In this document: in pieces, positions 5,973 through 59,419 of the stretch
Layout of the letters: the number at the start of each line of letters is the position of its first letter
How positions within the stretch are numbered: the stretch's first letter is position 1
DNA from: Flavobacterium sp. WC2421
GTDB taxonomy: Bacteria > Bacteroidota > Bacteroidia > Flavobacteriales > Flavobacteriaceae
Direction: 5' to 3'
NCBI RefSeq assembly: GCF_040822115.1
Contig: NZ_CP162004.1
Span: forward strand, 434,001-498,000
Length of the DNA stretch: 64,000 nucleotides
Position numbers and translations under genes: made by a program
The notes under the pieces: model-generated
Told to the model about the DNA's origin: nothing
Seen by the model: the letters and a program-made list of their open reading frames with translations, nothing else
Database searches by the model: none

Positions 5973-5978
5973 CTGCAC

Positions 5979-6138
5979 ACTTTAGGGGTGTCTACAATAT
6001 TGTAGGCTGAGAATTACCCTCTGAACCTGATCTAGTTCATACTAGCGTAGGGAAAAGTAAGATGACTTCGTCGCGTATTTTTATGCGCCCTTGTAGCCAT
6101 TCCTAAAGTATAACTATACTAAATTTAAAAAGGAATGG
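5979..6138 (+). promoter_or_regulatory. TPP riboswitch (THI element) controlling thiS
   Basis: The aptamer spans about 5979-6058. It has GGGGTG, CTGAGA, ACCC and GAACCTGATCTAG...TAGCGTAGGGAAA in canonical order, with P1 formed by ACTTT (5979-5983) and AAAGT (6054-6058). The downstream part can be read as an expression platform: CCATTCCT (6097-6104) pairs perfectly with AGGAATGG (6131-6138), which contains the thiS start codon, and CCTAAAGT (6102-6109) pairs perfectly with ACTTTAGG (5979-5986) at the aptamer's 5' strand. The aptamer is certain; the switching model is inference from pairing. Confidence 0.95.
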
Positions 6139-6346: not shown

Positions 6347-6490
6347 CTGCTCGGGCGGGCTATCCGTTTCAAGTCCGCACTGCAATCTTATAAAACATAG
6401 TCTTAGTTAAAGCTTCTTTCAGTCGCTTCACTAATCCTTGTTTTACATCGATTCCACTTTACGGGCTTTTCACTGCTATCCCTAGCAGAA
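6347..6490 (-). repeat. Dispersed hairpin-border element, copy F (divergent)
   Basis: Read on the minus strand it starts TAGGGATAGCAGTGAAAAG followed by CCCG, and ends with GCGGACTTGAAACGG then ATAGCCCG. The shared blocks AGTGAAAAGCCCG and GGACTTG-AACGGA-AGC are also found in copy G (13431-13568). It is longer and less hairpin-like than copies A-E. It fills the first half of the thiS-thiC gap (6342-6680). Confidence 0.6.
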
Positions 6491-13302: not shown

Positions 13303-13430
13303 AAATTATTCTGTTTACTGTGTGAAATTGGACACGGATTTAACGGATAGATAGTTGTTTTATTGCTGTCTTTCTTATTAATTTATGTGGATTGTGTGTC
13401 GTAGTTTTCTTAGTAGGATTGTATGTGTTT

Positions 13431-13568
13431 TGCCCCAGATGGGAGTGAAAAGCCCGGACTTAAAAAACTATTTTTTCAAGGAATAAAAGAGCGACCGTAG
13501 GAAGCTCCTTTTATGACTTTAGAAAAAAAGGTTTTGAAGGAGGACTTGTAACGGACAGCTGGATAAGG
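13431..13568 (+). repeat. Dispersed hairpin-border element, copy G (divergent)
   Basis: Starts TGCCCCAGATGGGAGTGAAA then AGCCCGGACTT, and ends GGACTTGTAACGGACAGC then TGGATAAGG. It contains an internal stem (ATAAAAGAGC against GCTCCTTTTAT, one bulge). It shares its borders with copy F and abuts the aat stop codon. It sits between the convergent thiF and aat genes. Confidence 0.65.
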
Positions 13569-13570
13569 CA

Positions 13571-22814: not shown

Positions 22815-22997
22815 CCGTAAATAAGATTACGAATAAAAGGGGGAATTATTCTTTTGTTAAATTAATAAATGATTGTTTCCTATGACTATCAGATAGCGTA
22901 CACACTATTGATTTATCATTTTTTCCCTTGACAACATTACTCGTCTAGGTTCGTTGGGTATAATCTCAGCTCGTTATTTAGAGCACCCCTTTGAGAC
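22815..22997 (-). promoter_or_regulatory. TPP riboswitch upstream of the TonB receptor
   Basis: On the minus strand the aptamer (about 22997-22921) reads GGGGTGCTC, GAGCTGAGATTATACCC, GAACCTAGACGAGTAATG, TTGTCAAGGGAA: the THI-box blocks in canonical order, with P3 GCTC/GAGC and a P5 stem GACGA/TTGTC. Downstream, CCCCTTT (22842-22836) is complementary to AAAGGGG in the aptamer's 5' strand (22992-22986), and a CGTAA/TTACG hairpin sits just before the start codon. The aptamer is clear; the control mechanism is inferred. Confidence 0.9.
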
Positions 22998-23001
22998 GGG
23001 G

Positions 23002-29088: not shown

Positions 29089-29107
29089 GATTCTATATCG
29101 TGATTTT

Positions 29108-29210
29108 TAGCCCCGATGGCAACGGCATCCTTTTTATCTTGAAAATTGTTTTAGTTTACCAAAACAAGTTCAAGATAAAAAGATATAGTGAACAGCGGGA
29201 TTAGCTCCTG
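29108..29210 (+). repeat. Dispersed hairpin-border element, copy A
   Basis: Left border TAGCCCCGATGGCAACGGCA then TCC; right border GATATAGTGAACAGCGGGAT then TAGCTCC. The core is a near-perfect stem: CTTTTTATCTTGAA against TTCAAGATAAAAAG, with inner TTGTTTT/AAAACAA. It lies between the divergent phosphopantetheinyl transferase and ahcY genes. Confidence 0.8.
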
Positions 29211-30771: not shown

Positions 30772-30801
30772 GTTTTTGGGCGAGACCCTACGTAAAAACT
30801 T

Positions 30802-30880
30802 CGGGTCGGGCTATTCACTATATCTTTTATTTCTTCCCGAAGTTTCGAGACGAAATAAAAGGATACCGCTACTATCCCTT
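30802..30880 (-). repeat. Dispersed hairpin-border element, copy E
   Basis: On the minus strand: GGGATAGTAGCGGTATCC, a stem CTTTTATTTC/GAAATAAAAG whose loop holds a second hairpin (CTTCGGG near GAAACTTCGGG), then GATATAGTGAATAGCCCGA. Outside it CCTACGTAAAA (from 30788) and TTTTCACGTAGG (to about 30933) form a wider inverted repeat. It is part of the 425-base gap between convergent ahcY and rpmA; nothing else is recognised there apart from two terminators. Confidence 0.7.
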
Positions 30881-31052
30881 TCGCAGTTCCCACGAGCTAG
30901 GGAATCCCTTCCTGCACAGATTTTCACGTAGGACTGCAGTGAGGCTCTGCAATTACGCAACGCTTTGACACAAACAATTTTTACAATCAAAAAAATCCAT
31001 TTCCCGTTCAGCCACCCTCTCCTTTGGCAAAGGACTGGGAATTATCCACAAA

Positions 31053-42085: not shown

Positions 42086-42164
42086 GAGCTACTTCCAGCT
42101 ATACGCTGCAATCTTTTTATTTTTAAAGAAAAAATAAAAAGGATTTCCACTGCTATCTGGGCTA
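42086..42164 (-). repeat. Dispersed hairpin-border element, copy D
   Basis: On the minus strand TAGCCCAGATAGCAGTGGAA then ATCC, a stem CTTTTTATTTTT/AAAAATAAAAAG with a short loop, then GATTGCAGCGTATAGCTGGA and AGTAGCTC. It lies between the convergent RNase G and MFS genes; the rest of that 317-base gap holds only the terminator. Confidence 0.72.
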
Positions 42165-42307
42165 AAGTAATTTCATTATCAATACAATTACCTTCTCTCC
42201 AGAACGAACAAAAAACAAATTGCAATTCAGTTGAAGATCTTAAAAACAAGAAAACTGTTCCTATAAACTAGAGTTATCTACTTATAAATCAATAGTCACT
42301 AACAAAT

Positions 42308-51672: not shown

Positions 51673-51754
51673 AGTATTTTTATTTAATGGATTGGAGTTC
51701 AACAAAATTGATGATGCAATTGTGATTTCCTGAAAAACTACTAATTGTAATCGC

Positions 51755-51835
51755 TAGCCCCGATTGTAGCGGCATCCTCTAGTGTAAGCGAAAGCAAACA
51801 CTAGAGATATAGCAAAAAGCGGGACCAATGTTGCT
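51755..51835 (+). repeat. Dispersed hairpin-border element, copy B
   Basis: TAGCCCCGATTGTAGCGGCA then TCC, a perfect 9-bp stem CTCTAGTGT/ACACTAGAG, then ATATAGCAAAAAGCGGGACC. Same borders as copy A, quite different but self-complementary core. It lies between convergent genes. Confidence 0.8.
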
Positions 51836-59307: not shown

Positions 59308-59390
59308 TGGGAAGCTAATCCCGCTCTCATTCCTATCTTTGTGTTTTTTAAAGAAAAAAACACAAAGGATATTCCCTTCCATCGGGGCTA
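59308..59390 (-). repeat. Dispersed hairpin-border element, copy C
   Basis: On the minus strand TAGCCCCGATGGAAGGGAAT then ATCC, a stem CTTTGTGTTTTTTT/AAAAAACACAAAG, then GATAGGAATGAGAGCGGGAT and TAGCTTCCC. It lies inside the nrdB-nrdA operon, the only copy clearly between two co-directional genes of one pathway. Confidence 0.78.
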
Positions 59391-59419
59391 GGTGCCACCG
59401 GTAACCTAAAAGCTAATTT

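Follow-up and report, generated by a model that had tools for sequence, protein, structure and literature searches.

Flavo-1 (Rfam RF01705) is an already known family, an RNA motif of Bacteroidota that is catalogued but unexplained. It was published in 2010 and, in the accessible part of that paper, is named once, as a table row (Weinberg et al. 2010, PMC2864571); having been described then, the family is not new. A review counts it among the abundant sRNA families, in the portion of its text that is available (PMC9029176). In the accessible text on the F. psychrophilum transcriptome, Flavo-1 matches are sense or antisense to transcribed regions with no preference, and many lie outside transcribed regions (PMC9723704). 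The literature retrieved by name or by the accession RF01705, PMC2864571 included, states no function in its accessible portions, in agreement with an earlier reading made without databases (the sequence-only reading), which knew of no described function. The search returned nothing on GNA loops in DNA and no further description of Flavo-1. Rfam files the family as an sRNA gene, a filing that is not favoured by the placement of the copies reported here.

Integron attC sites have conserved ends around a variable, self-complementary middle and are folded as one strand. Flavo-1 has the same arrangement of ends and middle, but it occurs as 110 single copies over 3.83 Mb, in both orientations and in no same-orientation array. 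The REP and BIME sequences associated with RAYT are described, in the available part of the source, as imperfect hairpins dispersed between genes in high copy number, in which complementary changes preserve the pairing (PMC2817692). Flavo-1 resembles these in its dispersal, high copy number, intergenic position and compensatory changes within imperfect hairpins, whereas its unit is longer, it has conserved internal loops and no pairing with a RAYT was seen. The REP head is 5′ GT(A/G)G, as defined for Stenotrophomonas in the accessible text. This head is absent from the Flavo-1 copies inspected; the parsed copies mostly start with TAGCCC, or their left flank ends in GAGGG or similar. A RAYT gene between two inverted Flavo-1 copies was found in none of the 15 Y1 loci scanned out of 30. 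The CGTC-tagged palindromic repeats occur in Bacteroidetes and Spirochaetes as well, according to the portion of the paper available (PMC3733652); these are also high-copy palindromes, a likeness to Flavo-1 that is drawn from the description only. REPs have been counted in two Flavobacterium species, as given in the accessible part of a further paper (PMC12306157).

The window analysed here is the whole stretch of 64,000 nucleotides (64 kb) from Flavobacterium sp. WC2421. The sequence-only reading had reported seven copies of a hairpin element with common borders, named A to G, and all seven are present in the sequence where it placed them. It took the element to be undescribed, which does not hold: copies A–E are members of the Flavo-1 family, and a match to a known Rfam family was an outcome that the reading itself had named as refuting it. 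These five score 53.2–77.9 bits against RF01705 (E 1.7e-15 to 1.1e-8; gathering threshold 42 bits) and align to the model end to end, with the same borders and helices. Copies F and G are under the threshold and are longer Flavo-1-like variants with borders of the A–E type, in which the RF01705 border pattern is kept and the stems are longer. A second model, R1, was built from 25 Flavo-1 copies of the same genome. Its search of the window recovers A–E and G; F is not recovered at E<=0.05. The copies, with the genes on either side named from Pfam unless stated otherwise, are as follows:

6347..6490, minus strand: copy F, long Flavo-1-like variant (RF01705 27.0 bits, E 0.18; fold z -5.12), antisense, between thiS (read off the translation) and thiC.
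13428..13569, plus strand: copy G, long Flavo-1-like variant (RF01705 34.8 bits, E 0.0013; R1 33.1 bits, E 2.9e-6; fold z -3.08), between convergent ThiF family and Leu-Phe-tRNA transferase genes.
29105..29206, plus strand: copy A, Flavo-1 (RF01705 71.3 bits; R1 46.2 bits), between a divergent 4′-phosphopantetheinyl transferase gene and sahH; left border 29108–29130 with a bulged C at 29130, inner stem-loop 29131–29181, right border 29182–29208.
30800..30902, minus strand: copy E, Flavo-1 with a type Q border (RF01705 53.2 bits; R1 41.8 bits, over 30800–30883), between convergent sahH and ribosomal protein L27 genes.
42088..42167, minus strand: copy D, Flavo-1 (RF01705 77.9 bits; R1 85.7 bits), between convergent RNase E/G family and MFS genes.
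51752..51830, plus strand: copy B, Flavo-1 (RF01705 56.4 bits; R1 46.3 bits), between convergent amine oxidase and Lrp-AsnC family genes.
59313..59393, minus strand: copy C, Flavo-1 (RF01705 53.3 bits; R1 60.6 bits), sense, lying between the genes for the small and large subunits of ribonucleotide reductase.

The gene contexts given by the sequence-only reading (four convergent, one divergent, two co-directional) are correct, and no transposase was found among the neighbouring genes run through Pfam, as it had stated. In the type Q border of copy E, the outer helix differs from that of RF01705, the outer CCC/GGG pairs being inverted to GGG/CCC. The border pattern of F is common to G and to one further place in the genome. 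As copy C lies sense in an operon-like gap, it is probably transcribed, judging from its position. Both long variants adjoin thiamin genes, F between thiS and thiC and G after the ThiF family gene. A TPP riboswitch is located at window positions 5974–6070, ahead of the thiamin genes, and a second TPP-like match (22907–23000, minus strand, 33.7 bits, below the gathering score) lies upstream of a 736-amino acid ORF.

The arms of A–E were said to pair each with its own partner, and this pattern extends to the genome. In 25 chosen class I copies from the same genome (19 pairs, 475 cells), 96.2% of the cells are paired and both sides have changed in 12 of the 19 pairs. None of 500 shuffles scored as high, and slid alignments were paired in 36.4–50.1% of cells. 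The consensus helices of RF01705 show covariation in these copies. All four Watson–Crick pairs are used at positions 10 and 14 (79 and 80 of 84 copies), a count that covers the 84 of 110 copies that were parsed, 26 with differing borders being skipped. Across 198 elements and 1979 cells there are 51 G-U and one A-C combinations. Such an excess of G-U over A-C points to one folded strand, and the folded single strand is under selection, as the sequence-only reading had argued.

The architecture consists of a short outer helix, a 3×3 loop in which GNA faces GNA, a 2-bp helix, a second 3×3 loop, a bulged C and the inner stem. In the first loop, the left side is GNA in 190 of the 198 elements and the right side in 191, a regularity partly imposed by the search pattern, which demanded A at the third base of this loop and G or A at the first. 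The second loop divides the elements into two classes. In class I (125 of 198) it is GNA-like, with GNA facing GNA; in class II (73 of 198) it begins with GRY in most, a GRY-like side facing an ANA-like one. Inner pairing was also demanded of this set, from which one element out of 199 was removed because of its register; together with the loop pattern, this makes its counts lean towards the consensus. Relatives supplied 122 of the 199 elements, with orthologues included.

Two kinds of tip close the inner stem. Of the 180 elements whose stem has six positions or more, 97 end in a five-base loop; it takes the form NNNTT, the last two bases being T in 95 and 92 of the 97. These two bases are kept even between elements whose loop-proximal arms are unrelated (agreement 0.94 and 0.85 over 2040 pairs). 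The second tip is GNA-NN-GNA-NN-GNA with NN paired; the 199 inner regions contain it ten times, where base shuffles predict 0.007 occurrences. GNA triloops are stable in DNA.

Folding calculations bear on the form in which the strand may act. The RNA folds of A, B, C, E, F and G are better than those of dinucleotide shuffles (z -2.44 to -5.12); copy D is the exception (z -1.34; 22 of the 200 shuffles fold equally well). With RNA parameters, the minimum-energy fold contains the inner stem in all five of A–E and the border helices in A and E and partly in B, while C and D pair their borders otherwise. With DNA parameters, the border helices are absent from the minimum-energy folds of A–D and only partial in E, and the opposite strand of A–D is about as stable. 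The absent border helices and the equal opposite strand speak against an ssDNA form. On the other side, G-U occupies 51 of the 1979 Flavo-1 cells and 15 of 152 in the TPP riboswitch helices of relatives (p 3.5e-5), a deficit that leans weakly towards DNA over RNA, given that orthologues are included, the control is small and the stems differ. Within helix 2 (25 of 396), G-U does not differ from the riboswitch control. An RNA form of Flavo-1 is quite possible.

The genome of 3.83 Mb holds 110 Flavo-1 matches at E<=0.001, 102 of them above the cut-off (150 of 1147 candidates were scored). A match was found in 40 of 60 relatives, the count per genome ranging within the genus from 0 to at least 65, and in 22 of the 148 genomes of a phylum-wide sample. 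The copies are mostly intergenic, as the sequence-only reading had it, since 103 of the 110 overlap no called ORF; of the seven that do, two lie in long ORFs that by eye resemble TTG extensions upstream of real genes. Sixty-six copies occupy co-directional gaps, 19 divergent and 15 convergent ones, and three are one-sided. Among 101 background gaps, 59 are co-directional, 31 divergent and 11 convergent. The convergent majority in the window is therefore no genome-wide trend (15 of 100 copies against 11 of 101 background gaps, p 0.41; divergent 19 of 100).

There is little orientation with respect to genes. Within co-directional gaps of the genome, 28 copies are sense and 38 antisense (p 0.27). 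At the 43 loci parsed out of 47 in relatives, nine are sense, 22 antisense, five divergent, four convergent, two overlapping and one open; pooled with the genome’s own copies, this gives 37 sense against 60 antisense (p 0.025), a mild antisense tendency. No bias with replication was detected (50 of the 110 copies, p 0.39), a count that places dnaA at 1.2 kb and assumes the terminus to lie diametrically opposite. Stop codons lie at a median distance of 50 nt (n=98) and start codons at 87 nt (n=105). The motif TANNTTTG, which is presumably the Bacteroidota promoter box, occurs within 100 nt pointing away from the element in 41 of 220 flanks and toward it in 16 of 220. A promoter of the element’s own was not seen, the motif being present in the sense direction within 100 nt upstream in 10 of the 110 copies. 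In the 3′ flank (+4 to +16), AAAAA is found in 41 of 110 copies and TTTTT in three; a control stretch has AAAAA in 11 of 110. An intrinsic terminator, which is a GC-rich hairpin followed by a U-run, was rejected on these tracts and on the composition of the inner regions, which are 73% A+T.

At some sites the element persists from one species to another with its inner stem exchanged, and other sites have been gained or lost. Between the phosphopantetheinyl transferase gene and sahH (site A), a copy is found at the same place and in the same orientation in all of the best-matching 29 relatives out of 357 scored (357 of 398 genomes), and the inner stems are often unrelated between relatives. Among 20 more distant sahH loci, picked by hand and non-random, six score, two of them weakly at about 20 bits, and two others have visible remnants. 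Apparent decayed copies were seen by eye at the sahH site of two loci (L238 and L239), with the outer ends only or the right half only. In five syntenic relatives, R1 finds 28 matches, of which 17, one of them weak, fall on window sites and 11 elsewhere. Sites A and D are occupied in five of five and E in four of five, while G and F have one match each, that of F being weak. Site C has one match, from the sole stretch seen to reach it, and copy B was not found in these five by R1. At position 604884 of the genome, nine of ten relatives can be compared: two have the same core, two have other cores and five are without the element, the gap holding different sequence that the model does not match. 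At position 1738264, two of ten relatives have the element, with other cores.

Cores also recur between sites. Thirteen copies of the genome, grouped visually, form a core subfamily that spans both border types. Its flanks, inspected by eye with a MITE in mind (terminal inverted repeats and a target-site duplication), differ. The pattern of this subfamily gives 15 matches: 12 have no more than one mismatch and are all in Flavo-1 copies; the other three, at two mismatches, lie outside. The reversed pattern gives six. Similar cores recur many times in several relatives. One relative has four identical copies with much of the upstream flank in common, and in two of the four the downstream flank diverges soon past the 3′ border. 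This early divergence hints that the 3′ border is a true end of the element. By eye, three loci (L024, L131 and L234) show other palindromes within the core or border of Flavo-1 that look like insertions.

Y1 transposases and reverse transcriptases were compared with copy number in 37 genomes of the genus, the latter because of the A-tract 3′ of the element. The limit for high copy number was set at 30 by choice, counts reaching at least 65. Neither class tracks copy number: of the 25 high-copy genomes, 19 have Y1 transposases and 16 have reverse transcriptases; of the 12 low-copy ones, 8 and 6 do. Reverse transcriptases were dropped as the mobiliser, having no association with copy number. 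Two further observations concern Y1-type genes. The genome has a tandem pair of identical 137-amino acid genes near 2.317 Mb (L083), and RAYT-like genes at two loci (L084 and L087) adjoin short repeats of another kind, which show up as recurring peptide motifs in spurious ORFs; the scan of these two loci found no Flavo-1.

The published transcriptome, in its accessible part, and the placement of the copies argue against an ordinary sRNA gene, and Flavo-1 is probably not a conventional one. Persistence at some sites argues against a freely moving parasite. It is tentatively proposed, with something short of even confidence, that Flavo-1 is a hairpin repeat akin to REP, in which copying or overwriting is rare, and not a conventional sRNA gene, acting through a mechanism that we infer as follows. 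The folded strand, as either ssDNA or RNA, would be the recognition structure for a putative trans-acting enzyme. The element would be copied rarely, the core of one copy could at times overwrite that of another, and copies would persist where they leave transcription undisturbed. Several points count against this proposal. No mobilising enzyme emerged among the Y1 transposases and reverse transcriptases, and the folds obtained with DNA parameters do not support the mechanism. Conservation at fixed places suggests local selection, for which a selfish repeat has no need, and the persistence of sites is partial. The mild antisense tendency, the riboswitch-like G-U share in helix 2 and the probable transcription of copy C also count against it. 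Flavo-1 might instead be a REP proper, with an IS200/IS605-family RAYT as its mobiliser; its dispersal and copy number are similar, and RAYT-like Y1 proteins are present in the genus. The distribution in the genus and the neighbourhoods of the Y1 loci disfavour such a mobiliser: among the 15 of 30 Y1 loci scanned, only one with a strong IS200-type match (L066) has Flavo-1, as a single copy, and six high-copy genomes have no Y1 match at E<=0.001, a limit that weak RAYT matches could escape. This version is very improbable. A new class of convertible ssDNA hairpin, and not an RNA gene, has also been considered, in which the stacked GNA-type loops would form a handle for a putative enzyme and the inner arm would be swapped between copies, so that fixed sites would receive new cores; this is rather improbable.

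It is possible, if doubtful, that Flavo-1 is a structured RNA as in Rfam, either numerous short RNAs or elements embedded in mRNAs, with internal and terminal loops that a protein would bind. Such a role would account for the covariation with G-U tolerated and A-C not, for the NNNTT pentaloop kept across unrelated arms, and for the border fold that RNA parameters give to A and E where DNA parameters give it only partly to E. It sits poorly with the weak orientation to genes, the scarcity of sense promoter-like motifs upstream and, in the accessible transcriptome text, the lack of orientation and the many matches outside transcribed regions (PMC9723704). The conserved position at several sites, the promoter-like motifs directed more often away and the absence of replication orientation would suit a chromosomal site for a nucleoid protein, a topoisomerase or an insulator, locally selected, with the hairpin extruded between transcription units. 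The range of 0 to at least 65 copies within one genus means that such a function would be dispensable, and the G-U/A-C asymmetry is unexpected for a double-stranded site, so that this explanation appears unlikely. A bidirectional element for transcription ends or mRNA 3′ processing would fit the shorter distance to stop than to start codons, but convergent gaps are not enriched, 19 of 100 copies are divergent and most of the copies inspected visually lack a U-run beyond the stem on either side. It, too, is improbable.

For this known family, most of the evidence agrees with a REP-like repeat that is rarely copied and often stays where it is. If Flavo-1 is truly a repeat element, its annotation as an sRNA would mislead wherever it is counted. 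The persistent sites, replaced cores and two kinds of tip make Flavo-1 testable in a laboratory Flavobacterium.
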